A stretch of 64,000 bases of DNA from Musa acuminata AAA Group (Eukaryota; Streptophyta; Magnoliopsida; Zingiberales; Musaceae): assembly GCF_036884655.1 (NCBI RefSeq), contig NC_088356.1, positions 9,280,001-9,344,000 on the forward strand, in the 5' to 3' direction. The translations under genes and the position numbers were made by a program. Below are positions 19,879 to 64,000 of the stretch, piece after piece (within the stretch, counting starts at the first letter, position 1; every line of letters starts with the position of its first letter). The notes beneath the pieces were generated by a model that saw only the letters and a list, made by a program, of their open reading frames with translations, made no database searches and was not told where the DNA came from.

Positions 19879-19885
19879 TTGGACG

Positions 19886-19903
19886 GCCCTCCTAGCGCCA
19901 ATC
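19886..19903 (-). promoter_or_regulatory. Primer-binding site of the Tat element
   Basis: The minus strand reads, after the 5' LTR, GAT then TGGCGCTAGGAGGGC. A PBS starting TGG within three bases of the LTR fits tRNA 3'-CCA pairing. The truncated Tat element further right has TTT then TGGCACTAGAAGAAGGG at the same place. I cannot name the tRNA. Confidence 0.7.
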
Positions 19904-20430: not shown

Positions 20431-20435
20431 ATTTG

Positions 20436-21185: not shown

Positions 21186-21255
<70 letters not shown>

Positions 21256-22619: not shown

Positions 22620-25600
22620 GATAAGAAGGTTTTTCTGGCTACCTTCATGCTAGAAGGAGAGGTTGAGCACTGGTGACGAACCATGAAGAGGATTTCTGAA
22701 GCTCGACAGGAGCCAATCACTTGGAAGGTATTTACAGAAAAGTTCAATGATAAATATTTTCCAGATTATATCAGAGAGCAGAAAGAATTGGAGTTCCTGA
22801 ATCTCATCCAGGGAAATTTGACAGTAGCCAAATATGAGTCTAAATTCACTGAGCTCTCTAGATTTGCCATGCATATGATTGATGATGAACATAGGAGAGC
22901 AAGAAGATTTGAAAGAGGACTAAGGCCGACAATAAGAAGCCGGATATCAGTTTTAAAACTCCAAGTATACACTGATGTAGTAGAAAGAGCTTTCATACTT
23001 GAAAAAGACTTAGAGGAGATCCAAGAAATCAGGGACAAGAACAACAAGGATAAGTTTGTTGGTAAAAGTAAGAGAGGAAATGAAGCAGAAAGAAGTAACA
23101 AGAGGGTAAATGTACCTAGATTTGAGAAAGGAACTCTATCGCAAAGAACTCTATCGTGTACAAAATGTGGACTCAATCATGAAACAAGTGAGTGTTTTGG
23201 GGTGACTGGAGCCTTTTTTGCCTGTGGAATGTTAGATCATAAAATCAGAGACTGCCCACTAAACAAGAAGAAAGAGCCACTACCCCCTAAGGCAACAACC
23301 CATGCTAGAGTATATGCTATCACATAACAAGATTCCAGAGCCTCTAAATTAGTGGTTGAAGGTATTCTACATGTTTCTAATAGAAATGCAAAAGTTTTGT
23401 TTGATCCTAGTTCCAACTTATCTTTTGTTTCACAATATTTTGCTTATCACTTGGGCATTCAACCTAAACCACTGGATTATTTGCTACACGTAACTACTGC
23501 TGTTGGGGATTCCTTGACTACAAATCTGGTTTATCCATCTTGTTTGATTTCTATCGGAGAACATGAACTCCTTACCGATTTGATACTCCTAGAAATCCAA
23601 GGTTTTGATATTATACTAGGCATGGATTGGTTATCTTCCTATCATACTAGTATTGATTGTTATACAAAAATAATTACTTTCTGCATACCAAATCAGCCTA
23701 TCTTCTACTTTGAGAGTATTAGGCATGATTTGCCTCTTTGCTTAATATCGACACTTCAAACTCAATGCCTTATGAAGAAGAGATGTTGTTGTTATGTTAT
23801 ATGTGTAAAGGAACATTCAGAACAAGAAACTCACCTAAATGAAATTTCCGTGGCTAAAGAGTTCCCTGATGTATTCCCAGAGGATTTGCTTGGATTACCT
23901 CCAGACAGGGAAGGTGAGTTTGTTATTGATTTAGTCCCCAGGACAGCCCCAATATCTAAGCCTCCCTACAGAATGTCACCACTCGAGCTCGAGGAATTGA
24001 AGAAGCAAATACAAGAGTTGTTAGATAAGGGTTTCATTCGACCCAGCGTCTCACCGTGGGGTGCTCCAGTGCTATTAGTTAAGAAGAAGGATGAGACGTT
24101 GAGGCTTTGTATTGATTATAGATAGTTGAATCAGGTGACCATCAAAAACAAGTATCCCCTACCCAGGATTGATGACTTGTTTGATCAATTACAAGGTGTA
24201 CAAGTATTCTCCAAGATTGATATAAGATCAGGTTACTATCAGTTGAAGGTCAAGAAGGAGGATATTCTAAAAACAACTTTTAGAACTCGATATGGTCACT
24301 ACGAATTTTTAGTAATGCCTTTTGACTTGACTAATGCTCCTGCTGCTTTTATGGAACTGATGAATAGAATATTTCAGTCACTCTTAGATGATTATGTAAT
24401 TGTATTCATTGATGACATATTAGTATATTCAAGGAGTAATCAAGAGCATGATAAACACTTGAGAGATGTATTATCTATACTAAGAGAAAAGAAGTTGTAT
24501 GCAAAGTTCAGCAAATATGAATTTTGGTTGAAGGAAATTACTTTCTTAGGCCACGTGATTTCAGGAAAGGGCATATCTGTTGATCCCAAGAAGGTGGAAG
24601 CAGTAGTTAATTGGGAAGGCCAACAAATGTAACAGAAGTTAGAAGTTTCTTGGGCATGGCAGGTTATTACAGGAGATTTGTGGAGGGATTTTCTCAAATT
24701 GCTCATCCCCTCACCAAACTAACTCAAAAGAATGTGAAATTTGAATGGAGTGGTGATTGTGAGCAAAGTTTCCAAGAATTAAAAAGAAGATTGACTAGTG
24801 CCCCTATTCTCACTATTCCGAGTGGTAGTGAAGGATTTATAGTTTATACTGATGCTTCAAGAAAGGGCCTTTGATGTGTTTTGATGCAAGAAGGGAAAGT
24901 AATTGCTTATGCTTCAAGGTAGCTAAAGAATTATGAATTGAATTATTCGACTCATGATTTGGAATTGGCAGCAATCATCTTTGCTCTAAAGATTTGGAGA
25001 CATTACTTATATGGGCGGACATTTGATATCTTTACTGATCACAAAAGTTTAAAGTACATTTTTACACAGAAGAAGTTAAATATGAGGCAGCGAAGATAGA
25101 TAGAACTTCTAAAGGATTATGATTGTACCATCCGTTATCACCCAGGTAAAGCAAATGTTGTAGCTGATGCACTTAGTAGAAAATCTACAAGTTTTATGGC
25201 TAGTCTAGTTGTGAAACAATGGAAGCTATTAGAAAGAAATTATGATTCAAATGTAATGAGGAAAGGGCAAGACTCAATAATGTTGATGGCCTTTATCCAG
25301 GTGCAAACTAATCTCATTCAACAAATTAAAGAAGGACAACTATGAGATCCACATTTAATATACTTGAGGAATGAAGTTGAAAAGGGATTGAAGTTGAATT
25401 TTCAAATTTCAGATGATGGCCTAGTGAGATTTGGGGATAGAATATGTGTTCCAAATGACCTAGATATCAAGAACCAAATCTTGAACGAAGGTTATAATTC
25501 AAAGTATACCCATGCATCCTGGTAGCACGAAAATGTATAGAGATCTCCAAAGTCATTATTGGTGGAAAGGCATGAAGAAAGAGATTGCAATATATGTTTC

Positions 25601-26767
25601 AAGGTGTTTGACATGTCAGCAAATCAAAGCAGAACACCAGAGACCTGGAGGTTTGTTACAGCTCTTAGATATTCCTGAATGGAAATAACAATGCATTACT
25701 ATGGACTTTGTTTCAGGACTACCCAGAACCTCTAGAATGCATGATGCTATTTGGGTCATTGTTGATAGGTTAACCAAATCTGTATATTTCTTACCAATCA
25801 ATATGACTTATTCTCTTGATAGGCTTGCAGATTTGTATGTTGATGAAATAGTAAGACTTCATGGTGACCCGAAGGAGATCATCTCGGATAGAGACTCCAG
25901 ATTTCTTTCTAGATTGTGGAGGAGATTACAAGATTCTATGGGCACCAAAGTAAAGTTTAGCACTGCTTATTACCCTCAGACTGATGGTCAATCTGAAAGA
26001 ATAATTCAAGTACTTGAGGATTTGCTTAGAGCCTATGTTATGAATTGGAGAGGTGAATGGGATAAAGATATTTCTCTTATTGAGTTCACTTACAATAATA
26101 GTTACCATTCGAGCATTCAGATGGCTCCTTATGAAGCATTGTATGGGAAAAAGTGTAAAACGCCTATATGTTGGGAGGAAGTTGGTGATAGAAAGTTGTT
26201 AGCACCAGATAAAGTACAAAAGACTACTGAAAAGATTCAGATTATCATAAAAAGGTTAAAGGCTGCTCAGAGTCGGCAAAAGAGCTATGCTGACAACAGA
26301 AGATGAGATATCAAGTTCCAAGTAGGGGATTTTGTATTCCTAAAGGTCTCCCCTTCCAAAGGCGTTGTAAGATTTGGAAAGAAAGGAAAGTTAAACCCAA
26401 GGTTCATTGGACCTTTTGAGATCCTTGAAAAAATTGGCTCTGTTGCTTACAAGATTACCTTACCACCATCGATGTGTCATATTCATGATTATTTCATGTG
26501 TCAATGCTTAGAAAGTATATACCTGATCCCTCTCATGTCATTGAGTATGAGCCGATTGTGATTGAAAAAGACTTATTTTACAAGGAAGAGCCTATTCAGA
26601 TTATTGATAAAAAAGAGAAAATCTTAAGAAATAGAATCATTACTCTGGTTAAAGTAATTTGGAAGCATCATTCTATGAATGAAACGACCTGGAAGCTGGA
26701 GGAAGAAATGAAGAAAGCTTATCCTCATCTTTTCTCCGAAAGAGGTATGACAAATTCAAAGGATTAA
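22620..26767 (+). pseudogene. Chromovirus (Ty3/gypsy, Tekay/Del-like) gag-pol relic
   Basis: 5' truncated inside gag. Order: Gag, two zinc knuckles, protease, RT, RNase H, integrase, chromodomain-like C-terminus. Gag: FLATFMLEGEVEHW then TGA for the second Trp; KEFLNL-type helix (QKELEFLNLIQGNLTVAKYE); knuckles CTKCGLNHETSEC and CGMLDHKIRDC. Protease: the DSG triad is DPS ([13 protein letters not shown]), so inactive. RT: TAG at 24123 for Gln; [11 protein letters not shown] intact; frameshift at ~24620. RNase H has three stops. Integrase D,D,E seen (IVDRLTKSVYF, ISDRDSRFL, SERIIQVLEDLL). Chromodomain-type end at 26600-26750: RNRIITLVKVIWKHHSMNE, TTWKLEEEMKKAYPHLF. No 5' LTR was found. Confidence 0.92.
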
Positions 26768-38978: not shown

Positions 38979-39253
<275 letters not shown>

Positions 39254-39479
39254 AATGTTTTGGTATTATCTTCTTCCTATGGATTCAAGAACATAGTGAA
39301 TGTCATAGTTCTCTCTCTCTCTCTCTCTCTCTCTAGGACATTGATCAAAAGATCCAGACATCCATTACATGTTGTTGTGAAGCTATCCATGACACAGTAA
39401 ATACTTGAAAGCATTTGCTCTCTCCATCCAACAAATTTGACATATCCTATAGTGTAGTAGCAGATAACAGTTAAGGGCT

Positions 39480-39881
39480 TTATGTTTGCTTACAAAGATC
39501 ACTAAACATCCTTCGGTACTTATCAATCGATATCTAGTGGTGTGAATCTGCTGACATGCCTAGAGTGTGTGCACATCATACTTGTTATTCTTAGCATTAT
39601 CATTATCATTGGCATTCTTTTGTAGCTCCAAAGGGATAGCCAAATTATGGATCTACAACAGCTTTTCCCTTCTTCTCTCCGGTACTTTTGATGTTCTTCC
39701 TGATCTTCTCATTGCTCATTCTAAAGACAACTTTATTGTCATCAAGCATGTAGCCCTTTCCCTTAACCCCTTGAAGAGAGAAATCCAAGAGATTCTCCTC
39801 AAGACTTGTACCTTCAACACTTGTTTTGGAGAGGATCATGACCAAAACAAATGTGATAACAAGTGCAAATGGGATCTTCAT
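39480..39881 (-). pseudogene. Peptide gene A, pseudogene of the secreted-peptide family
   Basis: Start ATG 39881. It keeps the signal peptide (MKIPFALVITFVLVMILSKT), SLEENLLDFSLQGVKGKGYM and DDNKVVF, then runs into TAA after AVVDP where gene E has Ser. Further on the frame breaks, but GMSADSHH, SIDKYRRMF and SDL still align to E (GMSADSHHQISIDEYRRMFG). The upstream layout is preserved: intron 39892-40034, TATA 40086-40093, promoter box 40244-40268. So it is a recently lost gene, inverted relative to E. Confidence 0.85.
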
Positions 39882-40085
39882 TGTTGATAAGCTGCAACAA
39901 AGCAAAAATTGACCATTTCAATACTAAGATCCTAATATGTAACAATCAATTTTTAAACTTTGATACATTCATCATTTAAATATAATAATATGGCTAAGTA
40001 AATAGCTAAAATTAGTATGAGCCTTGGTGTTTACCTTGAATTCATTCCTTCTGAAAAAGTTTCAGATACTAGATATAAGGCAAGA

Positions 40086-40093
40086 TATTTATA
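40086..40093 (-). promoter_or_regulatory. TATA box of pseudogene A
   Basis: TATAAATA on the minus strand, ~50 bp before the 5'UTR exon end at 40035. Confidence 0.65.
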
Positions 40094-40244
40094 AGAAAAT
40101 TTTCAAGTTTAAACAAATTAATATAAATTAACGAGATAAACATTGAAAATCTTATGGTGCCTTTCGGCCATGCCCATATATCTTATGAAACATAGGTTGC
40201 ATAAGATAATTATCACGCTAATTATATACGCCACGCGCACCAAT

Positions 40245-41229
40245 GAGACAGGGGAGGATAATAATCATGTCATAGATGGACAAAATTGATTGCAATTGAT
40301 ACTACATTAATTTAACTATGTCTAACTTTTTATGTTTCTAAAAAAGTTAAGATATATGTTTCTCTCAAATGACAAAATAATATCTATTTCTACAACTCTA
40401 CTATCAGCATGATTTGCCAATGTGCTTCATTAGTTTAGAGATGACCAAGAAAAATGCCACCACAAGTATAATTATCTTGTAATCCAAATAGGAAAGCTTC
40501 TTTGGAAAAGAACAAAGGCAATTAGCATGAACTTAGTCAATCTAAAATGATAATGATCAAAGGCTCCATTGTTCTATATACCATGAAAAAATATCATGTT
40601 AAGTTCCTAACTAATAAAATGAACATAATTGTCCAATTACTACATTGTTGTTGTTGTTGTTTTACAATGCTTTGAATTAATGAAGCATCAAAGTAGTAAG
40701 CATAACCAAGCATAAGTATATACATCATTATAATGATTAGGTTGGCTAAACTGGTGGCTGTCCAAAGATAAGGTCACATTGCTCGTGCAAGAGTCTACAA
40801 TGAACCCCTCTACAGACTTCAAGTCATGATTAACTTATAATGGCTTTTTAGCATACATTATGGACCATGCTTTGACTTGTTTTTGATGAATTAAATGATT
40901 TTCTATATCTAACTAATGGCCAATCCCATTATTTTCTTTGGTATTTGGCATAGCAAAATATCAAAACCCTAAACCCTAGCAGAACTATGGAGGAATCAAT
41001 TGAAAGCAAACTACCTTGGTTCTTAGGCATTGATTAAGTTCATTATTTTATGTACTTGTTATGTGTTTTGGAAATGTTCTATGTTTTCATGCTCAACCTT
41101 TATTTGTATATCATGTTCGTGACATATGATTTATCTTTATGCTCATACATAACTCTCATGGTTCATAAAAGCCATCAAACATCCATCATCATGAGTCTAT
41201 CCCTTAGGTTATTTGGGTAAATAAAGACA

Positions 41230-41279
<50 letters not shown>

Positions 41280-41800
41280 CCAACATTGTTAGCATTAATG
41301 TAGGGTTTGCCCCACAAAATAACTCTAGATTTTACATGTAACATATGCACAAAAAGAAACATTGCCTACAACATCATGTATACTGAATTAACTAGCTGCT
41401 ACCTACCTGTGTATCATAGATTAGAAGACCGACAGGTGCTCTTCCTTTTGGCCATTTGCCCACAATTTTCATGTAAAAAAATTGCAAGTGATTTGGAAAG
41501 GAGCGGTCTGACTTTGTAAAGGACCAACAACTAAAAATTTTAGTGAATGCCTCATAGATATCTATCACTCTTAGGAATTGGTACTATGTGGACAGTACAT
41601 ATAACAAGCCAAGGCAGCCATAGACATTTTATTTTATGCAGTAGTAGTTCAGTACATTGACAGAAAAGCCCCAGCCATCCATGACATAATGATCTAGAGC
41701 TATACATGGCAATAAGTACTTGAAAGCATTTCCCCATATACTGAGCAAATCTCACACATCCTATATACTACTGTAGCAAATAGCAGTTCATGGCAGCAGC
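40245..41800. other. Spacer between A and B
   Basis: No gene. Contains (AG)22 at 41232-41275. The segment 40244-41420 is repeated directly at 43850-44990 and inverted at 51410-52560 and 62985-64000, always as the upstream side of an A/E-type gene. Confidence 0.6.
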
Positions 41801-41806
41801 GTAGTC

Positions 41807-42196
41807 TTAAGGGCGTTTAGCAGAATCCCTTAAGCCGTGGTGTGGTAAATTGTCCGTGGGTCGAGTGCGTGCCATACGACTAGCATCAAACATCTTGTCG
41901 TTCTCGGCATCCTTCGTGGCACCAAAGGAATAGCCAAGTGATGCATCTGCAGCAGCTTTTACCTTCTTCTCTCCGGGAATACTGTTGATGTCTTTCTTGG
42001 CCTCCTCGTCGTTGCTTCCACCAGTACTACTGGAGCTAAACACAACTTTGTTATCAGCATGCACGTATTCCTTTCCCTGAACTCCTCGAAGAGAGCTATC
42101 CAAGGGATTCTCCTCAAGCCTTCTCCCTTCCACACCAGTTTTGGAGAGGATGATGACCAAACCAAATGTAAAAACGAGCACAAATGACATCTTCAT
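41807..42196 (-). CDS. Secreted peptide precursor B (129 aa), family of unknown function
   Basis: Signal peptide MKMSFVLVFTFGLVIILSKT-GVEG, then RRLEENPLDSSLRGVQGKEY, DNKVVFSSSS, a polar middle (SNDEEAKKDINSIPGEKKVK) and a conserved tail TRPTDNLPHHGLRDSAKRP. No Cys after the signal peptide, no membrane helix or domain. That layout (secretion signal, variable polar middle, fixed tip) is typical of small peptide-hormone precursors; I know no named family with this tip. A 5'UTR intron (42207-42347, 141 nt) splits the leader; acceptor TTGTAG, and ATG is 10 bases into exon 2. TATA 42395-42402; promoter box 42545-42569. Closest paralogue: gene D. Intact reading frame. Confidence 0.78.
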   Translation of the reverse strand: MKMSFVLVFTFGLVIILSKTGVEGRRLEENPLDSSLRGVQGKEYVHADNKVVFSSSSTGGSNDEEAKKDINSIPGEKKVKAAADASLGYSFGATKDAENDKMFDASRMARTRPTDNLPHHGLRDSAKRP

Positions 42197-42394
42197 TGTT
42201 GATCAGCTACAACAAAGTGAAAAATTCACATTTCAATACTAAGATATCCTATATGTAACAATTAATTTCGAGCTTTGATATATTCAACAGATACATGTGC
42301 TAATATGGTTAAGTAAATAGCTAAAACTAGGATGTCTTAGAACTTACCTTGAACTCAAATCCTCCACGTTTGAGATACTTGATATGAGACACGA

Positions 42395-42402
42395 TATTTA
42401 TA
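42395..42402 (-). promoter_or_regulatory. TATA box of gene B
   Basis: TATAAATA (minus strand); the 5'UTR exon ends TTCAAG, GTAAGT follows. Confidence 0.75.
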
Positions 42403-42544
42403 AGGGAACCTTCAAGGTTGGAACAAATAGAGAAAGTAACAAGATAAATATTTGGAATCTTATTGTGCATATCGGTCATGCGCGCATATCATAAGACTTT
42501 GCGTGCCTAAGAATTTATTGTGCGAATTACATCGTGCACACCAA

Positions 42545-42569
42545 CGAGATAGTGGAGAATAATAATCAT
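42545..42569 (-). promoter_or_regulatory. Conserved upstream box of gene B
   Basis: Minus strand ATGATTATTATTCTCCACTA then TCTC. Present 167-175 bp before TATA in A, B, C, D and E. Confidence 0.65.
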
Positions 42570-43186
42570 GTCGCCGATGGATGAAATCGATTGCAATTGA
42601 CACTCCATTGAGTGCCATATATCTAACTTCGTATGCTAGTCAAAAGGTTCAAATAGGCACTTCACTCAACCCTATATTGGACAACTATTAGTTTCCCTAG
42701 TTCTCTAACGATAAGAAATATCTACTTCTACACCTATACTATCAACATTGTTTGTCAATTTTATGTACGCTTGACTTGTGATGCAAATAGAAGAATTTCT
42801 TTGTAAACTAGTGCAGGGACACTTAGTATGAACTTAGTCAAGTTAAACCAACCAAAAGAATCATGCTAAATTCCTAGCTACTGAAATGGATATAATTTTT
42901 CAGTTTATTATACATGCATTGTGAGAAGTATCATGTTGAATTCATGACTATTAATATGAATATAATTGTTCAATTATTATATTGTTGTTGTTGTTGTTGT
43001 TGTTGTTCATGTCTTCGAATGAAGCATCATAGTCATAAGCATAACCAAACATATGTGAACCTACATCTCCTCAAAAACACAGATTTAATATTAGCACATT
43101 CATTTTCTATTTAACAAGTTGTATAAGTTAGTAAAATGCCATTACAAATTGTTTAACATTGTTGTTTTGAGAACTGATTCTTAACA

Positions 43187-43815
43187 TTGATATTTTGGTT
43201 TGACAAAATTTCAATGTGCCCAGATGGAATGTTGCCTTTAGGGTTGGATAGAACTGAGAAATCCCTTTTTCTTTTTTTGCCTTTGGTGTTGTGTTTTCTA
43301 TGTGCTCCTCAGATGTTCTATACATCTAATCCTAGTTCACATGCTTCTGCTCATAATCATAACTCTTATGGTTTGTCATCAAGACAAAAACTATTCCATG
43401 CATGCGTATATCCATCAAAATATGCAAATAAGAACCCAATATGGGGCCTCAGGTCTTCTCCCTCTGTTGATATAGTGCAAGATTCAGTGTAGGACTCTAT
43501 TTCTCTCGGTCGAAACATGAACTGTTAATGGAGTAACAATGAGCATGCTTTGATGGCTAGTATTCCGGCATGGAATAGTTTCTGTTCTTACCAAGTCGAT
43601 CAGAAAAATATATACACAATTACTGATGGAAGTATGAACTACAACAAAAGATATAGGCATTCCTTGCATTCTAGTAAGCAGCATCGTGATAATTTGCAAT
43701 GCCAAATAAGATTCTCTACATATGCTGGTGCCTCTCTCGGAGGAGTTGATTTATCTGAGGGTCATGCATATTTTTGCAAACGCACAAACATAAATTATGG
43801 TGGTATCATATGCAT
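43187..43815 (+). pseudogene. Coding-like segment, copy 1 (unknown protein)
   Basis: Open blocks: DGMLPLGLDRTEKSLF, SNPSSHASAHNHNSYGLSSR, YPSKYANKNPIWGLRSSPSV, and after stops SIPAWNSFCSYQVDQKNIYT, YAGASLGGVDLSEGHAYFC. A second direct copy is at 46245-46870 and a partial inverted copy at 49545-49690. I do not recognise the protein. Stops (TAG after QDSV) say it is not functional here. It may be a fragment of a host gene carried within the duplicated unit. Confidence 0.45.
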
Positions 43816-43849
43816 TGAATCCCCAACTCTTTAGCCATAAGGACACCAA

Positions 43850-44990
43850 TGAGATATTGGAGAATAATAATTGTGTTGCCGATGGACAAAACTGATTGCA
43901 ATTGAGACCGCATTAATATAAATATGTCCAACTTTTTATGTTCGTCAAAATGTTGAGATATATGTTTTGCTCAAATCTCTTTTGGACAAAGATTATTGCC
44001 TAATTCTCTAATGACAAAAATAATATCTTCTTCTACAACTCTACTATCAGCATTATTTACCAATGTGGTCTATCACTTTAGAGATGACGAGGAAAAATGG
44101 CCAAGCACAAGTATACTTATCTTGTAATCTTAATAGGAAAGCTTCTTTAGAAAAGAAAAAAGAAAAATAGCATGAACTTAGTCAATCTAAAATGATAATG
44201 ATCAAAAGCTCAATCATACTATATATCATGAAAAAAAAAATCATGTTAAGTTCCATAATTATAAAATGAATATAATTGTTCAATTATTAATTGTTGTTGC
44301 TATAGTTCATTGCTTTGAATTAATGAATCAACAAAGTCTTAAGCATAGCCAAGCATTAGTATAGTCATCATTATGCAGATTAGGTTGGCTAAACTGGTGG
44401 CTATCCAAAAGATAAGGCCTACAAGGTACTTCTTTAAAGACATCAAGTCATGATCCATGCTTTGGCCTGTTTTTGATTCATTGAATGAATTGCAAAGCTA
44501 ATTAATGGCTTGTTTAAATTAGTAAAAATAATGCTTAGATATTTATTTTTGACAAAAAATTCTATATATTCATATACGGTGTTGCACTTAGTCTACTAGA
44601 AGGGGCATCGGCACATCGATAGAACTTTTAGACCAAAACTTCAGTGTTGACTATTAACTATACTTGAAAATCTCATTATTTTCTTTCGTATTTGGCATAG
44701 CAAATTATCAAAACCCTAAACCCTAGAAGAACTACATATGAATTATTTAAAAGCAAACTACCTTGGTTCTTAGGTCTTGATTAAGTTCATTATTTTATAC
44801 ACTTGTTATGTGTTCTGCAAATGTTCCATGTTCTCAAGCTCAGCCTTAATTTGTATACCGTGTTCATCCTATATGATTGATCTTTATGTTCATACATAAC
44901 TCTCATAGTTCATAATACCCATGACTCATCCATCATCATGAGTCTATCCCTTAGGTTATTTTGGTAAATAAGGAAAGAGAGAGAGAGAGA
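43850..44990. repeat. Orphan copy of the A/E upstream region
   Basis: Starts with the promoter-box relic TGAGATATTGGAGAATAATA and continues like 40244-41280, including CAAAACCCTAAACCCTAG and a short (GA)n. No peptide gene is attached on its left. Confidence 0.7.
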
Positions 44991-45024
44991 TGATCATAAC
45001 AAAGACCAACAACTCGAAAGTCTA

Positions 45025-45272
45025 TTGCTGGTATTATGTGGACAGTACAAAGAACATGCCAAGCCAGTCATGGACATCCTATTTTATGTAGATGATCAGT
45101 ACATGAAAGCATTTGCTCCATATACCGAGAAAGTCTCACACATCCTACATACTACACTAGCAGATAGCAGTGCATGGCAGCAGCATAGTTTTAAGTACGT
45201 TTACGAGAATAGGCACACTTCCGTAGATACTTACAAGGCGTGACGTGGTGTGGGTCATTGGACGGCCGTGAG

Positions 45273-45308
<36 letters not shown>

Positions 45309-45440
45309 CTTGATATGAGACATCATACGAGACTTAATTATATATATAATTAATAAAAATTAATGACTTTAAACTTACTTCCTTGAGTTTGAGATACTTG
45401 GAGATATGATATTTAAAGATAACTTTCAAGATTAGAAGAA
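45025..45440 (-). pseudogene. Peptide gene relic F (B-type, coding part lost)
   Basis: 45025-45265 matches the B 3' end: 3'UTR (GACAGTACA, CATGAAAGCATTTGCTC, CTCACACATCCTA) and the complement of CACACCACG / GGACGG near the KRP tip. 45270-45310 is a (TA)n tract, and 45300-45440 matches the B intron donor, 5'UTR exon and promoter (ACTTGATATGAGACATC, TACTTCCTTGAGTTTGAGAT). The coding body between is missing. A box relic is at 45559-45580. Confidence 0.75.
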
Positions 45441-46244
45441 TATAGAAAATAATAAGATAAACATTGAGAATCTTATTATGCTTATTGGTCATGTGCACAT
45501 TTCCTAGAACATAGTGTGCCAAAGATATTTATTGTGCAAATTACATCATGTAAACCGATGAGATAGTGGAGAGTAATAATTGTATCCGATTTCACGATTG
45601 ATGAAATCGACACTCCATTGATTGTCATATGTCTAACTTAGCATTCTAGTCAAAAGGTTCAAATATGCATCTCACTAAACCCTATATCACACAAGTATTA
45701 ATTTCCTTAGTTCTCTAATGATAAGAAATATCTACTTCTACACCATACTATCAACATTGTTTGCCAATTTGCTCATTACTCCACCATATCTATACTTGAC
45801 TTGTGATGCAACTATAAGAACTTCTTTATAAACAAGAGCAAAGACAATCAGTATGAACTTAGTCAAGTTAATTTTTCAGTTAAATTCAGTTATTATACAA
45901 TCATGTTAAATTCCTAACTACTGAAATGGATATAATTTTTCAGTTATTATACATATCAGGAAATGTATCATGTTCAAGTCCTAATTATTCGTATGAATAT
46001 AATTTTTCAATTATTATATCGTTGTCGTTGTTCATGTCTTTGAATGAAGCATCATAGTCCTAAGCATAATGAAACATATGCAAACCTGTATCTGCTCAAA
46101 AATACATATTGATTAGTAACACATCCATTTTCTATTTAACAAGTTGTATAAGTTAGTAAAATGTCATCGCAATTTGTTTAACATTGTTGTTTTGAGAACT
46201 GATTTTTAACTTATACTTAGACATTTAATTTTGACAAAATTTCA

Positions 46245-46870
46245 ACATGCTCAATTGGAATGTTGCCTTTAGGGTTGGATAGAACTGAGAAATCCCTTTT
46301 TTTTTTGTTGCCTTTAGCATTGTGCTTTCTATGTGCTTCTTAGATGTTCTACATCTAATCCTAGTTCAATGCTTCTGCTCATAATCATAACTCTTGTGGT
46401 TTTTCATCAGAACAAAAACTATTCCATGCATACATTATATCCATCAAAATATGCAAATAAGAACCCAATATGGGGCCTTAAGTCTTCTCCCACCATAGAT
46501 ATAGTGCAAGATTCATCGTAGGACTCTATTTCTCTCGGTCCAAACATGAACAGTTAATGGAGTAACAATGAGCATGTCTTGATGGCTAGTATTCCTGCAT
46601 GGAATAGTTTCTATTCTCACCATGTCCATCAGAAAAATCATACACAATTGCTCATGGAAGTATGAACTACAACAAAAGATACAAGCATTCCTTGCATTCT
46701 AGTAAACAGCATTGTGATCATTTGCAATGCCAACTAAGATTCTCTTTTGAGGTTTTGGTCTAATAGTACTCTTCCTATGCTGATGCCTCCCTCGGAGGAG
46801 TTGATTTATCTGAGTGTCATGCATATTTTTGCAAACACACAAACATAAATTAAGGTGGTATCATAAATTT
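46245..46870 (+). pseudogene. Coding-like segment, copy 2
   Basis: Direct repeat of 43187-43815 (shared YPSKYANKNPIWGLKSSP). Frame shifts differ from copy 1. Together with relic F it shows that the B block (41.8-43.8 kb) was duplicated in direct orientation. Confidence 0.45.
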
Positions 46871-47180
46871 CAATAACTATAAGTCTAGACTAAGTTCATA
46901 CTAAATGCTTTTCATTTACAATTGAAGTCAAATACATAAATGATTTGGTCTTTTTTCCATGTCATATCGATACTAGTGGAGCACATAGGCAAACAAATAC
47001 TGATAGGTTGTCCGGTTAGATATTGTGCATCTTTGGAGAATTGGGTAAAGACATCTTTAATTTGTCTAATGTAGGTCTGAGTGATGTACGTATATTTTTA
47101 CACCTTGAGGAGCATAACCTATTAGACCTATGTAAAACTAATGTAGCCTAAATTGCTATTAATTTTGTTCCATTGGTGAC

Positions 47181-47205
47181 ATGATTATTATTCTCCACTA
47201 CCTCA
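47181..47205 (+). promoter_or_regulatory. Conserved upstream box of gene C
   Basis: ATGATTATTATTCTCCACTA then CCTCA; 170 bp before TATA. Confidence 0.65.
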
Positions 47206-47350
47206 TCAGTGTGCATGATGTAATTAGCGCAATAATTATCTTATCCATGCTATGTTCATAGAAAATACGGGCATGATCGAAAAGCACCACAGGATTCCCA
47301 ATGCTTATCTTGTCAATTTACATCAGTTCATCTAAGCTTGAACATCTGCC

Positions 47351-47358
47351 TATAAATA
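47351..47358 (+). promoter_or_regulatory. TATA box of gene C
   Basis: CCTATAAATACC; the 5'UTR exon ends at 47412 (TTCAAG), intron 47413-47550. Confidence 0.75.
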
Positions 47359-47560
47359 CCGTGCCCTCATACAAGAGCATCCCAAACTTGTCCCGGAGGA
47401 AGTCAATTCAAGGTAACTTCCAAGATTCCTATTACTTTAGTCATATATTTAACCATGTTAGCACACGATCAAGTTAATGAAAACATCAAATCTCAAAATT
47501 AATTGGTATAGTATCTAACTATTGAGATCATCATTTTCGTTTTGATGCAGCTTATCAACA

Positions 47561-47974
47561 ATGAAGATCTCATTTGTGCTTGTTTTAATATTTGGTTTGA
47601 CCATGATCTTCTCCAACAATAGTGTGGAAGGTGAATACATCGAGAATCCCTTGAGTTTCTCTCTTCACAGAGATAAGGGAAAGGAAAACAAGGTTCATGA
47701 TGATAAATCTGTCTTCAGTTCTAGTGTTGGTGGAAAGAGCAATGAAGAAACTAAGATGGACATCAACAATCTTGGAGAAATGAAAGGAAAAGATATCGGG
47801 AATCCATCACTTGCCACCAATAAAGCCAAAAGCAAAAACCATGGCAAGGACAACAACAACAAGTGTGATGGTGATCCTATTGCACAAACCCAAGGCATGT
47901 CCATGGACACACACCATGAGATATCGATCGATGACTACCGAAGGATGTATCGTAATATTCGTAAGCACCCTTAA
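47561..47974 (+). CDS. Secreted peptide precursor C (137 aa), family of unknown function
   Basis: Signal peptide MKISFVLVLIFGLTMIFSNN-SVEG; then EYIENPLSFSLHRDKGKENK, DDKSVFSSSVGG, NEETKMDINNLGEMKGK, an Asn/Lys-rich run and GMSMDTHHEISIDDYRRMYR ending NIRKHP. One Cys only. The DDY in the tip is an acidic-Tyr motif like those sulfated by plant TPST (as in PSK, RGF, CIF peptides), but the remaining tip matches none of those families. Intron 47413-47550 (138 nt) in the 5'UTR, acceptor GATGCAG. Most divergent of the intact members, and the only intact gene outside the inverted duplication arms. A 3'UTR hairpin follows at 48029-48050. Confidence 0.78.
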   Translation: MKISFVLVLIFGLTMIFSNNSVEGEYIENPLSFSLHRDKGKENKVHDDKSVFSSSVGGKSNEETKMDINNLGEMKGKDIGNPSLATNKAKSKNHGKDNNNKCDGDPIAQTQGMSMDTHHEISIDDYRRMYRNIRKHP

Positions 47975-48028
47975 AGCCTTGCAGCCTGGCACTGTTGACT
48001 CTTACTAGTAGTGTATGTGTGTAGCAAA

Positions 48029-48050
48029 TTTGCTCAGTATATAGAGCAAA
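48029..48050 (+). other. 3'UTR hairpin of gene C
   Basis: TTTGCTC-8 nt-GAGCAAA. The same hairpin follows E (53410-53431) and, with a G-T pair, D (51105-51126). Confidence 0.6.
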
Positions 48051-48496
48051 ATGGTTTCAAGTAATATGTGCTGCATATGTCCTTCGGTTGTGTCATGGAT
48101 GACTGAGGCCTCCTGGTCAATGTACTAAACTACTAAGTAAAATAAAATGTCCATGACTAGATTGGCTTGATACATTGTATCCGCACAATACAAACTCCTA
48201 AGAGAGACAGAAAGCTATGGCTCTCACTATTATTTTTAATGATTTCTAGAGGGAAGATTTGACTAGATATTGTGGCTCTTGGTCCTTCACAAACTTCTAC
48301 TCATGTATGTCTCATCATTCTATCTTCTACAATAGATATGTAGGTAGCTACCTAGTTAATTTAGTGTACATGATGTTAGAGGCAATATTTCTACTGATGC
48401 ATCTGTCGTTTGTAAACCCCATAGATTTAACAAGCACATCAAAGTTGAGTTCTTGCTTGAAGACATTAATTATTAGCTTTGTTAGGCAATATTACC

Positions 48497-49545
48497 AGCT
48501 ATGCATCTGTTACATGTAAACCCTAAAGTTTTTCTTGCGGGGTGGAGTAAACCCTAAAGTTCTAACAAGCACACCAAAGTAGAGTTCTTGCTGGAAGACA
48601 AGATGAACTTTGTTCGTGATGAAAACTAGGCTTCGATGTCTTCATGAAGAACCTTGCCAGATGACTTTATGCAAGCATATAATGGAGGTGTTTGGCTTGC
48701 AAGATCGAAATAGTTTTTGGTTCTTCCATGAACTCGTACACATGGGTAGCAATTATTGAATGGAGATTCCTTGACGCTTTAAAGTGCAGTGGTGTCTAGG
48801 CATGCGGCTCGTCTTGGAATCTGAATCAGATCAGACAAGTTCTATGATTGATGTCTGAAGAGTGAAAGTTTCGAGATCATATCTTCTTACATACATATGT
48901 AGCTTCGTATACCAGTTTCAATATTATTTATATATATGTGTATGAACTCGAGGAGGGACATTAACAAATATTTTGACAGAATCAGATTTCAGACACTACT
49001 CTAAGACAAAAATTTCTTTCCTTTCCTTGCGTTTAGATCAAATTTATCACCTAACCAAATTCATTTACCAGTTCATTGACATGATTCAAGTCTTGAGAGG
49101 TTCTTGAGGGTCTGAGAAGAACAAACCTGACGGGCGAAATCATGGCCATGTTTTCTTGTTCCAATAGGAACATCATTGCCCTGTTAGTAAAACAAGTTAT
49201 AGGACGAGTACGGGTCATCAACTATTTCTCATTTGGCTTGACAAACTGTTTAGGGTTAGGGTAAGAGTCCAAATAGCACGCACCAAAAAACCTTTCAAGA
49301 TAACTTATTCCTTGAGAGATCCACACAGAATGCGAGAGATTGTGTGAGAAATATATAACACAATGTTCTATTACCCTCCATCTGCCTCAAGACAGTCTCT
49401 TTCTGGACTGGAGTCTCGATCAAACCTTCAAATATCTATCACCATGATTAGTATATTATTTGATATAGCAATTCTCTCAAAATAATAACATGAGAAATGC
49501 TCATATATTGCTCACAAATTGTGAGAATGCCATCGAGTATTGGGT
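48497..49545. repeat. Inverted duplication II, left arm
   Basis: Reverse complement of ~56640-57622. Shared blocks: CCTTGACGCTTTAAAGTGC, TCAGACAAGTTCTATGATTG, CAGTTCATTGACATGATTCA, AATAATAACATGAGAAATGC. A partial direct copy (CTTGACGCTTTAAAGTGCGC, ATGCGGCTCGTC) is at 53860-54180, downstream of E as this one is downstream of C. Non-coding as far as I can see. Confidence 0.8.
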
Positions 49546-50282
49546 TCTTGTTTCAATATAAAATTGATGAATATATGCATGCATGGAATAGTTATTGATC
49601 TGATGAAAGCCATAAGAGTTATGATTAAGAGCAGAAGAATAATCATGCAAAGGTAAACAAATGAAATTTAATTAAGCATGTGAACTAGGATTAGATGTAT
49701 ATAACTAGGATTAGTGTAAGTTAAGAATCAGTCCTCAAAACAACAATGTTAAACAAATTGTGATGGTATTTTAATAACTTATACAACTTGTTAAATAGAC
49801 AATGGATGTGCTAATATTAAATCTGTGTTTTTGGGCAGATGTAGGTTTACATAGGTTTGGCTATTCTTATGCTTATGACTATGATGCTTCATTCAAAGTA
49901 TAGTAATTGTGCAATTATATTCACACTAATAGTCAAGACTTGAACATGATACTTCTTATGATATGTAAAATAACTGAAAAATTATATCCATTTCAGTAGT
50001 TAGGAATTTAACATGATTCTTTTGGTTGGTTTAACTTGACTAAGTTCATACTAATTGTCTTTGCTCTTGTTTACAAAGAAGTTCTTCTATTTGCATTACA
50101 AGTCAAGTATACATATGGTGGAGTAATCGGCAATTTGACAAACAATGTTGATAGTATAAGTGAAGAAATAGATATTTCTAGGGTTGAGTGAAGTGCCTAT
50201 TTGAACCTTTTGACTAGCATACAAAGTTAGACATATGACAATCAATGGAGTGTCAATTGCAATCGATTTCATCCATCGACGA

Positions 50283-50307
50283 AATGATTATTATTCTCCA
50301 CTATCTC
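50283..50307 (+). promoter_or_regulatory. Conserved upstream box of gene D
   Basis: ATGATTATTATTCTCCACTA then TCTCA, 169 bp before the TATA position. Confidence 0.65.
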
Positions 50308-50666
50308 ATTGGTGCGTGTGACGTAATTTGCACAATAAATACCTTAGGCATGCTCTGCCGTATAATATGCGCATATGACCGATACGCACAACAAGATTCC
50401 TAATGTTTATCTTGTTACTTTCTCTATTTTTCCCATCCTTGAAGGTTCCCTTGTAAATATCATGTCTCCTATCAAGTATCTCAAACTTGGAGGAACTGAG
50501 TTCAAGGTAAGTTTCAAGACTCATACTAGTTTTAGCTATTTACTTAACAATATTAGTACATGTATCTGTTGAATATATCAAAGCTCAAAATTAATTGTTA
50601 CATATAGGATATCTTAGTATTGAAATAGTGATTTTTTTGCTTTGTTGTAGCTTATCAACAACGAAG

Positions 50667-51047
50667 ATGTCATTTGTGCTTGTTTTTACATTTGGTTTGG
50701 CCATCATCCTCTCCAAAACTGGTGTGGAAGGCAGAAGGCTTGAGGAGAATCCCTTGGATCAGTCTCTTCGAGGAGTTCAGGGAAAGGAATACGTGCTTGC
50801 TGATAACAAAGTTGTGTTTAGCTCCAGTAGTGCTGGTGGAAGCAACAACGAGGAGGCCAAGAAGGACATCAACAGTACTCCTGGAGAGATGAAGGTAAAA
50901 GCTGTTAAAGATGCATCACCTGGCTATCGCTTTAGTGCCACGAAGGATGCCGAGAACAAGATGTTTGATGTTAGTACCATGTCACGCACTCGACCCACGG
51001 ACAATTTACCGCACCACAACTTAAGGGATTCTGCTAAACGCCCTTAA
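50667..51047 (+). CDS. Secreted peptide precursor D (126 aa), start codon shifted
   Basis: Nearly the same protein as B: FVLVFTFGLAIILSKTGVEG, RRLEENPLDQSLRGVQGKEY, DNKVVFSSSSAGG and tail SRTRPTDNLPHHNLRDSAKR-P. The family start ATG is ACG at 50661-50663; the next in-frame ATG (50667) drops only MK and keeps the signal peptide, so I use it. The TATA is TTGTAAATAT (50451-50460) instead of TTATAAATAT. The intron is 50517-50650 (134 nt), acceptor TTGTAG. The frame is open to the stop, so the gene may be weakly expressed or in early decay. 3'UTR poly-A signal AATAAA ~51222. Confidence 0.72.
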   Translation: MSFVLVFTFGLAIILSKTGVEGRRLEENPLDQSLRGVQGKEYVLADNKVVFSSSSAGGSNNEEAKKDINSTPGEMKVKAVKDASPGYRFSATKDAENKMFDVSTMSRTRPTDNLPHHNLRDSAKRP

Positions 51048-52540
51048 GACTATGCTGCTACCATGAACTGCTATCTTCTACAGTAGTATATAGGATGTGT
51101 GAGATTTGCTCAGTATATGGGGCAAATGCTTTCAAGTACTTATTGCCATGTATAGCTCTAGATCATTATGTCATGGATGGCTGGGGCTTTTCTGTCAATG
51201 TACTGAACTACTACTGCATAAAATAAAATGTCCATGACTAGCTTGGCTTGTTATATGTACTGTCCACATAGCACCAATTCCGAAGAGTAATAGATAGCTA
51301 TGAGGCATTCACTAAAATTTCCAGTTGTTGGTCCTTTACAAAGTCAGACCGCTCCTTTCCAAATCACTTGCAATTTTTTACGAAGAAGAGCACTTGTCGG
51401 TCTTCTGATCTATGATACACAGGTAGGTAGCAGCTAGTTAATTCAGTATGCATGATGTTATAGGCATTATTTCTTGTTGTGCATATGTTACATGTAAAAT
51501 CTAGAGTTTTTTGTGTGGGGTAAACCCTATATTTATGCTAACAATGTTGGGACATATCTCCCTCTCTCTCTCCTTGTCTTTATTTACCAAAATAACCTAA
51601 GGGATGGACTCATGATGACGGATGTTTGATGGCTATTATGAACCATGATTGTTATGTATGAGCATAAAAATAAATTATAAACATGATATACAAATAATGG
51701 TTGAGCATGAGAACATAGAACATTTGCAAAACACATAACAAGTACATAAAATAGTGAACTTAATCAAGGCCTAAGAAACAAGGTAGTTTGCTTGCAAATG
51801 GTTCCTCCATGATTCTTCTAGGGTTTAGGGTTTTGATGTTTTGCTATGCCAAATACTGAAAAATATATTGGAATTGTCCATTAATTAGATTTAAAAATCA
51901 TTTAATTCATCAAAAACAAGTCAAAGCATGGTCCATAATGTATGCTAAAAAACCATTATAAGTTAATCATGACTTGAAGTCTTTAAAGGGGTTCATTGTA
52001 GACTCTTGCACAAGCAATGTGACCTTATCTTTGGACAGCCACCACTTTAGCCATCCTAATCAGCATAATGATATCTACACTTATGCTTGGTTATGGTTAC
52101 GACTTTGATGCTTCATTAATTCAAAGCAATGAACAACAACAACTATGTAATAATTGAACAATTATGTTCATTTTATTAGTTAGGAACTCAAAATGAATTT
52201 TCTTTTCATGATATATAGAACAATTGAGCTTTTGATTATTATCATTTTAGATTGACTAAGTTCATGCTAATTGTCTTTGTTCTTTTCTGACGAAGCTTTC
52301 ATATTTGGATTACAATATAAGTATACTTGTGGTGGGTTATTTTTCCTGCTCATCTCTAAATTGATGGGGCACATTGGCAAATAATGCCGATAGTAGAGTT
52401 CTAGAAGTATATATTATTTTATCATTAGAGAATTAGGCAATAATCTTTGTCCAAAAATCTCAACTTTTTAACAAGCATAAAGAGTTAGACATAGTTAAAC
52501 TAATGTAGTCTAAACTGCAATCATTTTGTCCATCGATGAC

Positions 52541-52565
52541 ACGATTATTATTCTCCACTATCTCA
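52541..52565 (+). promoter_or_regulatory. Conserved upstream box of gene E
   Basis: ACGATTATTATTCTCCACTA then TCTCA, 169 bp before TATA. Confidence 0.65.
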
Positions 52566-52709
52566 CTAGTGACATATATAATTAGCATAATAATTATCTT
52601 ATGCAACCTATGTTTCATAGGATATGTGGGCATGATCGAAAGGCACCATAAGATTCCTAATGTATATCTTGTTAATTTTTATTAACTTGTTTAAGCTTAA
52701 AATTTTCCT

Positions 52710-52717
52710 TATAAATA
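52710..52717 (+). promoter_or_regulatory. TATA box of gene E
   Basis: TATAAATA; 5'UTR exon ends 52769 (ATTCAAG), intron 52770-52912. Confidence 0.75.
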
Positions 52718-52922
52718 TTGTGTCTCATATCCAGTATCTCAAACTTGTCTCGGAGGGAGCGAATTCAAGGTAAACACTAAGGCTCATACTAGTTTTAGCA
52801 ATTTACATAGCTATATTATTACATTTAGATGATGAATGTATCAAAGCTCAAAATTTGACTGTTATATATTAGGATCTTAGTATTGAAATGGTCAATTTTT
52901 GCTTTGTTGCAGCTTATCAACA

Positions 52923-53357
52923 ATGAAGATCCCATTTGCACTTGTTCTCACAATTGGTTTGGTCATGATCATCTCCAAAACAAGTGTTGATTGTAGAAGG
53001 CTTGAGGAGAATCCCCTGGATTTCTCTCTTCAAGGAGTTAAGGGCAAGGACTACATGCTCGATCATAATAAAGTTGTCTTTGGCGCCACTATCGGTGGAA
53101 GAAACAATGAGAAGATCAAGAAGAACATTAAAAGTATGGGAAAGAAGAAGGGAAAAGCTACTGTAGATCCATCATTTGGCTATCCCTTTGGAGTTCCAAA
53201 GAATGCCAATGATAATAATAGAAATAGCAATGCCAAGAACAACAAGTATGATGGTGATCCTTTTGCACACACTCTGGGTATGTCAGCAGATTCACACCAC
53301 CAGATATCGATCGATGAATATCGAAGGATGTTTGGTGATCTTCCTAAGCACCCATGA
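52923..53357 (+). CDS. Secreted peptide precursor E (144 aa), family of unknown function
   Basis: Signal peptide MKIPFALVLTIGLVMIISKT-SVDC; RRLEENPLDFSLQGVKGKDY, LDHNKVVFGATIGG, basic middle (NNEKIKKNIKSMGKKKGK), FGYPFGVPKNAND, Asn-rich run, and tail GMSADSHHQISIDEYRRMFG ending DLPKHP. Same subtype as C and pseudogene A; DEY replaces DDY. Intron 143 nt with acceptor TTGCAG; ATG 11 bases into exon 2. Hairpin in the 3'UTR at 53410-53431. Runs of basic residues in the middle could serve as protease sites. Intact; function unknown. Confidence 0.78.
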   Translation: MKIPFALVLTIGLVMIISKTSVDCRRLEENPLDFSLQGVKGKDYMLDHNKVVFGATIGGRNNEKIKKNIKSMGKKKGKATVDPSFGYPFGVPKNANDNNRNSNAKNNKYDGDPFAHTLGMSADSHHQISIDEYRRMFGDLPKHP

Positions 53358-53582
53358 AGCCCTGTTGCCCTTAACTGTTATCTGCTACTGCACTATAGGA
53401 TATGTCAAATTTGCTCGGTGTAAAGAGCAAATGCTTTAAAGTACTTTGTGTCATGGATAGCTCCACAACATGTAATGGATGTCTGGATCTTTAGATTAAT
53501 GTCCTACACTGCTAAATGTAATAAGATGTAATGACTGGCTTGACTTATTATATTTTCTATGCACTCAATCCCAGCTCCTAAG

Positions 53583-56440: not shown

Positions 56441-57712
56441 CTTACCATTTCATTAACATAATCCGAAGCATTGGGTTTCGTGCAGGCCTAACGAGAATAC
56501 TTGACAGCTGACATCATAGCCATGCATGTCATCATAGCCTTGTCAAATAAGACAAGTACTGACTTCATCAGTCATGTACTGTCTCTCTTTTGGTTGCACA
56601 CGCCCAATGCCTTCTCATCTTCCTCCTCTCTCAGGTACACCTTATGTGAGTTAATGCTCAATCGCATTCTCACAATATGTGAGCATTTCTCATGTTATTA
56701 TTTTGAGAAAATTGCTATATCAAGTAGTACGCTAATCATGGTGATAGATATTGGAAGATTTCATGCAGTGAGGCTTTCTTGATGCAGATGGAGGGTATTG
56801 TGTTATATATTTCTCACACAATCTTACTCATTCCGTGTGGATCTCTCGTAGCATGAGTTTTCTTGAAAGGTTATGGTACGTGCTATTTGGACTCTTACCC
56901 TAACCCGAAACAGTTTGTCAAGCCAAAAGAGAAATAGTTGACGACTCGCAAGGACAGTACTCGTCCTATAACTTGCTTTACTAACATGGCAATGATGTTC
57001 CTATCGGAACAGGAAAACATGGCTATGTCAGGTTTGTTCTTGGAGGACCCACAAGAACCTCTCAAGACTTGAATCATGTCAATGAACTGGTAAATGAATT
57101 TGGTTAGGTGATAAATTTGATCTAAACGCAAGCAAAGGAAAAGAAATTTTGGTGTTGAGTAGTGTCTCAAATCCGATTCTGTCAAGATATATATATATAT
57201 ATATAATATTGAAACTGATATACGAAGCTACATATGTATGTAAGATGAGATTATCTAAAAACTTTCACTCTTCAGACATCAATCATAGAACTTGTCTGAT
57301 CTGGTTCAGAATCCAAGACGCGTCGCACTTTAAAGCGTCAAGGAATCTCCATTCAATTATTGCGACCATGTGTGCGTGTTTCATGGAAGAAGAAACCCCT
57401 CTCTCGGGGAGAACCAAAAACTATTTCGATCTTGCAAGCCAAACACCTCCATTATATCCTTGCATAAATTTATCTGGCATATGTTCCTCATGAAGACGTC
57501 GAAGCCTAGTTTTCATCACGAACAAAGTTCATCTTGTCTTCCAGCAAGAACTCTACTTTGGTATGCTTGTTAGAACTTTAGGGTTTACTCAAGAGGTTAC
57601 ATCAGAAAGCAGATGCATGGCTATGATGTCAGCTGCCAAGTGCGTTCTCGCACCTGCATGAAACCCTAGGTTTTGGATTATGTTAATGAAATGGTAAATA
57701 ATGATTGGGTGA
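56441..57712. mobile_element. Possible TIR element enclosing right arm of inverted duplication II
   Basis: 56441-56530 is the reverse complement of 57617-57712 (TTACCATTTCATTAACATAA; GCAGCTGACATCATAGCCAT-like core). Between these ~90-bp ends lies the inverted copy (56640-57622) of 48497-49545. Long terminal inverted repeats around duplicated host DNA recall Mutator-like elements. No 8-10-bp target duplication was found. Confidence 0.4.
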
Positions 57713-62974: not shown

Positions 62975-62984
62975 ATATGTCTTC

Positions 62985-64000
62985 TATGATACACAGGTAG
63001 GTAGCAGCTAGTTAGTTGAATGTACATGATATTATAGGCAATATTTCTTGTTATGCATGTGTTACATGTAACGTCTGGAGTCTCTATGTGGGGCAAACCC
63101 TACATTTATGCTAACAAAGTTGGGACATCTCTCTCTCTCTCTCTCTCTCATAGAGGATGAACACGGTATCCAAATAAAGGCTGAGCGTGAGAACATGGAA
63201 CATTTGCAAAACACATAACAAGTACATAAAATAATGAACTTAATCAAGCCCTAAGAATCAAGGCAGTTTGCTTTCAAATAATTCATATGTAGTTCTTCTA
63301 GGGTTTAGGGTTTTGATAATTTGCTATGCCAAATACCTAAGAAAATAATGGGATTTTCAAGTATAATTAACAGTCAACACTGAAGTTTTGGTCTAAAAGT
63401 TCTATCCATGTGCCGATACCCCTCCTAGCAGACTAAGTGCAACACTGTATATGAATATATGGAATTTTTTGTCAAAAATAAATATCTAAGCATAAGTTTT
63501 ACTAATTCAAACAAGCCATTAATTAGCTTTTCTATTCATTCAATTCATCAAAAACAGGCCAAAGCATGGATCATGACTTGATGTCTTTAAAGAAGTTCCT
63601 TGTAGACCTTATCTTTTGGATAGCCACCGGTTTAGCCAACCTAACCTGCATAATGATGTCTATACTTATGCTTGGCTATGCTTAAGACTTTGATGCTTCA
63701 TTAATTCAAAGCAATGAACTACAGCAACAATAATTAATAATTGAACAATTATATTCATTTTACAAGTATGGAATTTAACATGATTTTTTTTTTTTTCATG
63801 ATACATAGAATGATTGAGCTTTTGATCATTATCATTTTAGATTTACTAAGTTCATTCTAATTGTCTTTGTTCTTTTCTAAAGAAGCTTTCCTATTTGGAT
63901 TATAAGATAAGTATACTTATGCTTGGTCATTTTTCCTGGTCATCTCTCAAGTAATAGACCACATTGGCAAATAATGCTGATAGTAGAGTTGTAGAAGCAG
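62985..64000 (+). repeat. Direct copy of the region upstream of gene E (runs off right edge)
   Basis: Co-linear with ~51410-52410: GATACACAGGTAGGTAGCAG, TTATGCTAACAA.GTTGGGA, (CT)n, GGGTTTAGGGTTTTGAT, CCACCGGTTTAGCCA, and ATAATGCTGATAGTAGAGTT at the edge. E's box, TATA and coding region begin 130-510 bp further on in the paralogue. Confidence 0.85.

Follow-up and report, generated by a model that had tools for sequence, protein, structure and literature searches.

A clustered family of candidate secreted peptide precursors in the banana genome

The banana genome contains a cluster of small, mutually homologous genes whose predicted products resemble precursors of secreted peptides. We examined it in a 64,000-nucleotide stretch of Musa acuminata AAA Group (assembly GCF_036884655.1, contig NC_088356.1, positions 9,280,001 to 9,344,000 of the forward strand; hereafter the window), where six units lie on both strands: B, C, D and E are open, A is a pseudogene and F a gutted relic (Table 1). 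An earlier reading of the letters, made without database searches (the sequence-only reading), had proposed five homologous units plus a relic; homology, places and strands hold, but the five units are not all intact, as A is a stop-ridden pseudogene. Its frame meets a first in-frame stop after residue 78 and many more beyond, and its decayed tail reads ISIDKYRRMFSDLCKQT. In unit D, an ACG at 50661 replaces the ATG of the other units, and the first Met lies two codons further. Relic F retains two longer matches to unit B, on the 3′ side and the promoter side (76–77% identical), and a TA run at about 45271–45306 sits where its body is missing. Protein matches between the units range from E = 1e-14 (B–C) to 3e-64 (B–D) and, together with the 68 genomic copies described below, exceed chance. 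Because A/B and D/E represent a single inverted duplication, the five units are not five independent observations.

Table 1 Features of the cluster, in window coordinates (aa, amino acids; CDS, coding sequence; UTR, untranslated region)
Feature	Position	Strand	Remarks
Inverted duplication, left arm (A+B)	39334..43185		85% identical to right arm
Unit A, E-type pseudogene	39489..39881	-	78-aa open stretch, many in-frame stops, decayed tail
Unit B	41807..42196	-	CDS 129 aa; tail TDNLPHHGLRDSAKRP, no Tyr in tail
Predicted 5′ UTR intron of B	42207..42347	-	GT...AG
Unit F, B-type relic	45029..45500	-	both flanks kept, coding body missing
Predicted 5′ UTR intron of C	47413..47550	+	
Unit C	47561..47974	+	CDS 137 aa
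Unit C C-terminal 13-mer	47933..47971	+	DYRRMYRNIRKHP; candidate mature peptide (mature form inferred)
Inverted duplication, right arm (D+E)	49720..53506		
Predicted 5′ UTR intron of D	50507..50650	+	
Unit D	50667..51047	+	CDS 126 aa counted from first Met; tail TDNLPHHNLRDSAKRP
Predicted 5′ UTR intron of E	52770..52912	+	
Unit E	52923..53357	+	CDS 144 aa
Unit E C-terminal 13-mer	53316..53354	+	EYRRMFGDLPKHP; candidate mature peptide (mature form inferred)

Upstream of the coding sequences, a TATA-like motif, TATAAATA, lies 206–213 bases before the start in B, C and E (about 206 in B), and the leaders of B, C, D and E end in TTCAAG, followed by a predicted 5′ UTR intron of 138–144 bases. The predicted acceptor lies 10 bases upstream of the ATG or, in D, 16 bases upstream of the first Met codon. 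Of 53 copies, a set that includes pseudogene A, 44 have the exact donor motif, 52 the acceptor and 47 the TATA-like site, at a sometimes unusual position; several of the nine copies lacking the donor motif carry an alternative GT site. The encoded proteins are small and Cys-poor, with zero or one Cys each after the N-terminal segment in B, C, D and E, and, judged by hydropathy, their start is signal-peptide-like: the best 12-residue mean reaches 2.9–3.1 at the N terminus and stays at or below 0.64 after residue 30. A signal-peptide-like start and the lack of a cysteine framework, as claimed by the sequence-only reading, are thus borne out. The motif RRLE follows the signal peptide in units B, D and E and in all 31 B copies counted. 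The precursor body is predicted to be disordered, as a low-confidence AlphaFold model built from a ten-row alignment has a mean predicted local distance difference test score (pLDDT) of 51.8, with helices only at residues 5–20 and 130–137, the latter in the tail (block means 58–64).

The precursors carry two types of tail. Those of E and C end in ...HH(Q/E)ISID(E/D)YRRMxxxxxKHP, and those of B and D in ...TDNLPHHxLRDSAKRP. By eye, the two look like one homologous tail in which E and C carry about nine extra codons (QISIDEYRR) that include a Tyr: the spacing D-14 residues-HH is equal in both types, and the tail ends, D(S/L)(A/P)K(R/H)P, align in E, B and D. A MAFFT DNA alignment of the B and E tails offers a gapless alternative to the nine-codon indel; we prefer the indel because the D-14-HH spacing and the A and T in between match. 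Two unrelated tips were also considered, and this candidate was set aside in favour of one tail with an indel. Synonymous divergence (dS) is 0.75 for E–C and 0.41 for E–B; because C is the most distant type and yet has the segment, its loss in B, whose tails contain no Tyr, is the simpler history, with no outgroup behind this inference. The residue before the tail Tyr is Asp in all ten C copies (DDY). Among B-type tips, 20 of 33 end in DSAKRP and 13 are altered; eight of these 13 share a third tip, HHCLWGSATCP, and in five of the 13 the stop is gone and the frame extends to K-T-(M/V)-L-L-P. The suggestion that two tip subtypes mean two ligands is therefore not established, as the subtypes appear to differ by a Tyr-removing indel and a third tip is present.

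Six-frame searches of the genome with B, C and E as queries returned 71, 73 and 71 matches. All copies lie on three contigs, C8, C19 and C30 (the window's own), and the sole matches elsewhere are three at E values of 5–8 in the C-query search. By hand, we sorted 68 copies into 33 B, 10 C, 12 E and 13 A (seven of the A-type copies were fetched, and one of the 13 lies within the window), plus two partial places (C30:10.044 Mb and C19:9.579 Mb); these counts are lower bounds. The B/C/E/A numbers are 10/3/3/4 on C30, 8/3/3/3 on C19 and 15/4/6/6 on C8, giving totals of 20, 17 and 31. The frame is open in 33 of 33 B copies (including L032 and L037, which lack the usual start), 10 of 10 C copies, 8 of 12 E copies and none of the 13 A copies. 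The three contigs carry the same cluster, and we infer that they are homologues in a phased triploid banana assembly, the window representing one haplotype of chromosome 8; the Musa balbisiana homologues carry Mb08t gene names. Between 10.44 and 10.78 Mb on C8, five pairs of copies have identical coding sequences (L010/L011, L027/L028, L034/L035, L047/L048 and L057/L058); these pairs and the 31 copies on C8 reflect either very recent duplication or an assembly effect. At the right end of the window, positions 62983–64000 match the D/E spacer (82–87%), the A/B spacer (86–89%) and 44027–44876 (93%), and the cluster therefore continues beyond the edge, where a further B-type copy lies at about 65810 and an A-type copy at about 67980 (C30:9345810 and 9347980).

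A profile search over 5.8 billion proteins, in which the best 8,000 candidates were scored, yielded among these candidates 26 proteins. Of these, 20 carry names and come from Musa or Ensete, five from ena sources are unnamed, and one is P0003 of the window itself. The named homologues come from M. acuminata, M. balbisiana, M. textilis, M. troglodytarum, Musa hybrid cultivars and Ensete ventricosum. So far, and as far as these protein searches reach, the family appears restricted to Musaceae, although unannotated genes of relatives in other Zingiberales could escape such searches. The five window units gave no Pfam match at an E cut-off of 10, and a PDB profile search at E 10 gave none; Pfam matches to Neuromodulin (E 0.014) and DUF3923 (E 0.24), each in one of ten relatives, were dismissed as low complexity or chance. 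Four tail strings of six to seven letters occur in no paper of one library of open papers, and none of the papers listed by topic searches, judged by titles and abstract openings, deals with the cluster family. Public gene models P0001, P0006, P0008, P0012 and P0023 look fused or truncated across adjacent units, and the family is thus poorly annotated. The proposal of a separate secreted-peptide-like family is supported by the precursor anatomy, the absence of Pfam (window units) and PDB matches, named homologues from Musa and Ensete only, and a well-kept end in one branch.

Several lines of evidence bear on selection. Gap blocks with a length divisible by three make up 7 of 9 in the coding sequence versus 12 of 54 in the flanks (Fisher p 0.002; terminal gaps were dropped, and seven flank blocks fall at one microsatellite and are not independent), and both coding exceptions fall at the very end of B copies, within their final two codons. 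These in-frame indels support selection on the reading frame. On the B tree, 147 substitutions created no internal stop versus 4.3 expected (P 0.013), and the ratio of nonsynonymous to synonymous rates (dN/dS) between window units E and C is 0.44. Identical copies were counted once in the tree and dN/dS analyses; L032 and L037 were left out of the tree, indel and dN/dS counts; broken E-type copies L049 and L067 and A-type copies L060 and L061 were left out of the alignments; and the stop-bearing E copies L041, L042 and L044 were left out of dN/dS and kept in the indel count.

By region, as means over distinct copies, dN/dS in the tail is 0.18 for E–E, 0.59 for E–C, 0.65 for C–C, 0.99 for B1–B1, 2.37 for B1–B2 and 10.4 for B2–B2, the last on very few silent changes (0.13 per pair). 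The corresponding values in the middle are 0.92 (E–E), 0.37 (C–C), 0.53 (E–C), 0.76 (B1–B1) and 1.31 (B1–B2); the signal region gives 0.34 (B1–B2) and 0.73 (E–C), and the segment just before the tail 0.30 (E–C). The sequence-only reading had named a dN/dS near 1, tail included, as telling against it, and the outcome is mixed: the E–E tail is low, but B1–B1 is near 1, B1–B2 exceeds it, and E–C and C–C are intermediate. Between unit E and its Ensete counterpart, 20 of 24 signal residues, 58 of 73 middle residues (plus 8 gapped), 15 of 17 pre-tail residues and 22 of 22 tail residues are identical; tail versus middle (58/81 with gaps) gives p 0.003, for one pair only and with the tail region named beforehand. 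The tail is thus nearly unchanged across genera in E, but no other part of the coding sequence changes as readily in B, so that the claim of a fixed tail holds for E against Ensete and fails for the 13 altered B tips.

The rest of the window contains a tandem repeat at 11191–11911 (66-base unit, 10.9 copies, 94% matches; several frames open on both strands) and, at 12341–26303, Gypsy-type long terminal repeat retrotransposon remnants with gag, reverse transcriptase, RNase H, integrase and Transposase_28 matches. Ten other open reading frames were tested, of which seven match retrotransposon families (all at 12.3–26.3 kb, one below the curated cut-off) and three gave no match. Closer to the cluster, a long AT dinucleotide array (38982–39254) lies near pseudogene A, and a second inverted repeat pair, 82% identical, occupies 48545–49510, downstream of C, and 56673–57590.

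The best single explanation, to which we assign a probability of about one half, is that the cluster is a Musaceae-restricted, PROSCOOP-like array of secreted precursors of peptide hormones. The array would have grown on chromosome 8 through local duplications, both inverted and tandem. The signal peptide would route each precursor into the secretory pathway; the disordered middle would be discarded, and subtilases would free a short C-terminal peptide. For E and C this peptide would probably be close to the 13-mer (D/E)YRRMxxxxxKHP, Tyr-sulfated by TPST in the Golgi, and a leucine-rich-repeat receptor kinase might read it, a guess by analogy with RGF, PSY and SCOOP. The B tails, which have diversified, could be novel or modified ligands in a family of the defence (phytocytokine) type, or else their tip may no longer have a function. 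According to PMC7162652, TPST requires Asp before the Tyr, SBT6.1 favours R-(R/K)-L-X or R-(R/K)-X-L, and CLEL6 and 9 need an N-terminal Asp for their final activation. RRLE of B, D and E fits the SBT6.1 motif. The Asp-Tyr of C fits the TPST rule and E has Glu, and sulfation is therefore plausible for C and less clear for E, as is release by a subtilase; in B, sulfation at that site is impossible because the Tyr-bearing codons are missing. A more specific version, which we regard as unlikely, holds that this is a sulfopeptide or phytocytokine family of the Musaceae's own, in which E and C keep the acid-Tyr 13-mer while B has lost the sulfation segment and diversifies its tip under positive selection, yielding ligands or decoys in an arms race with banana microbes.

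Several observations weigh against the hormone reading. The residue before the tail Tyr in open E copies is Glu in seven (DEY) and Lys in one (DKY, L043), not Asp, and the Ensete C-type model P0023 has DDF, with Phe replacing the Tyr. RRLE is missing from all 10 C copies and present in five of the eight open E ones; Ensete E reads RRPE. A TATA motif was looked for upstream of unit D and not found; the predicted disorder comes from the ten-row alignment; and four B-type copies with open frames may be silent, L019 and L020 having a broken or changed splice donor and L021 and L029 an upstream sequence unrelated to the usual one. The Ensete E tail is exact in three of the eight open Musa E copies, the other five being one residue off. 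Less favourable, too, are the M. troglodytarum C-type homologue (tail 19/22; middle 56/70, with 4 further positions gapped) and the C terminus of Ensete B (19/29 versus 30/38 for residues 63–100). On the E/C tree, the replacement:silent ratio of the tail (17:9) is close to those of the pre-tail (11:6), middle (99:38) and signal (15:6). On the B tree (27 distinct sequences, parsimony), the tail accumulated 51 replacement changes and 7 silent ones, versus 62 and 27 in signal plus middle (Fisher p 0.015), and against the neutral ratio its excess gives p 0.033 one-sided and 0.059 two-sided. B1–B2 divergence, measured in 60-base steps, is 0.15–0.16 per site across the C-terminal 120 bases and 0.035–0.066 over the next 300 bases, and reaches 0.09–0.22 in the intron and upstream (L033 is grouped with B1 in this profile and with B2 in the regional dN/dS). 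Because the tail's divergence is near that of intron and upstream sequence, plain loss of constraint is possible; on these counts, the B tail is either diversifying or released.

The precursors could instead be secreted disordered proteins that act whole, as cell-wall, metal-binding, antimicrobial or sap proteins, with no C-terminal hormone. The signal-peptide-like start and the predicted disorder speak for this, as does constraint beyond the tail: E–C dN/dS is as low in the middle and pre-tail as in the tail or lower, and the stretches K(Y/C)DGDP and ENPLxxSL are also common to E and C. We nevertheless consider it somewhat unlikely, as unit E and Ensete E vary in the middle and not in the last 22 residues, and the window units have neither a cysteine framework nor a Pfam match. 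A second alternative is that the array is mostly decaying and passively amplified, with little present function, and that its frames are open since the duplications are young. Stops in all 13 A-type and 4 of 12 E-type matches, relic F, the unequal haplotype copy numbers, a B1–B2 dN/dS above 1 in middle and tail, and B copies that have lost the splice donor, the start or (5 of 33) the stop fit such decay. It is harder to reconcile with the in-frame indels, the stop-free 33 B and 10 C copies, the E–C ratio of 0.44 and the well-kept E tail across genera, and a neutral frame would stay open with a probability of about 0.03 (one lineage, half the E–C distance, substitutions alone); we judge it distinctly unlikely.

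The array might also descend from one of the known sulfated families, RGF/GLV/CLEL or PSY, its precursor having diverged beyond recognition. Counted from the acid-Tyr, the E/C end spans 13 residues and closes the precursor, an arrangement that most lycophyte Group H RGFs share (PMC8329595), and a possible SBT6.1 site lies upstream in B, D and E. The same paper gives the RGF 13-mer marks as Asp1-Tyr2, Pro10 and Asn13, usually with Pro5, His8 and Pro9, and describes fern Group H-P peptides that end in Pro. E has Tyr2 and Pro10 but neither Asp1, its pair being EY or KY, nor Asn13; C has DY in all ten copies but neither Pro10 nor Asn13; both end in Pro, neither has Pro5, His8 or Pro9, and the B tails have no Tyr. 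Aligned to PSY on what we take to be the PSY1 spacing, the C type has Asp1, Tyr2, Asn8, Pro13 and a Lys-His near the end, but its His is at 12 rather than 11, and E has Tyr2 and Pro13 without the D and N. None of the 26 profile-search proteins bears the name RGF or PSY. The PSY domain residues are D, Y, N, H and P, and PSY peptides are reported across all higher plants and mosses (PMC7913133), whereas the banana family is seen only in Musaceae. Descent from RGF or PSY thus seems very unlikely to us. The claim that the tip lies outside known families holds in that strict RGF and PSY positions fail, but the E/C 13-mer is more RGF- and PSY-like than had been claimed.

If the hormone reading is true, banana, a major crop with few tools against wilt and leaf-spot, owns a large candidate peptide-signal family whose members carry no more than a hypothetical or unnamed label in public annotation, and the missing Tyr segment in one branch would be a natural test of the effect of sulfation. 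Among known systems, PSK, CIF, CEP, CLE and PIP are likewise secreted, processed precursors, and their mature motifs were not seen by eye in the banana units. The SCOOP motif SxS does not occur, by eye, within the C-terminal 25 residues of window units B, C, D and E, and membership in RGF, PSY or SCOOP was rejected because the defining positions are lacking. The PROSCOOP genes encode the SCOOPs, serine-rich endogenous peptides of the Brassicaceae with the receptor MIK2; unlike these, the banana tip stands at the very end of the precursor, with an acid-Tyr in E and C, and we see no evidence of common descent. The resemblance lies in organization: according to PMC6382344 and PMC8448819, PROSCOOPs form tandem clusters in one plant family, without Cys and with a variable short motif, as the banana array does. 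If the hormone reading holds, Musaceae would join the Brassicaceae, with their SCOOPs, among the plant families that have clustered peptide genes of their own.

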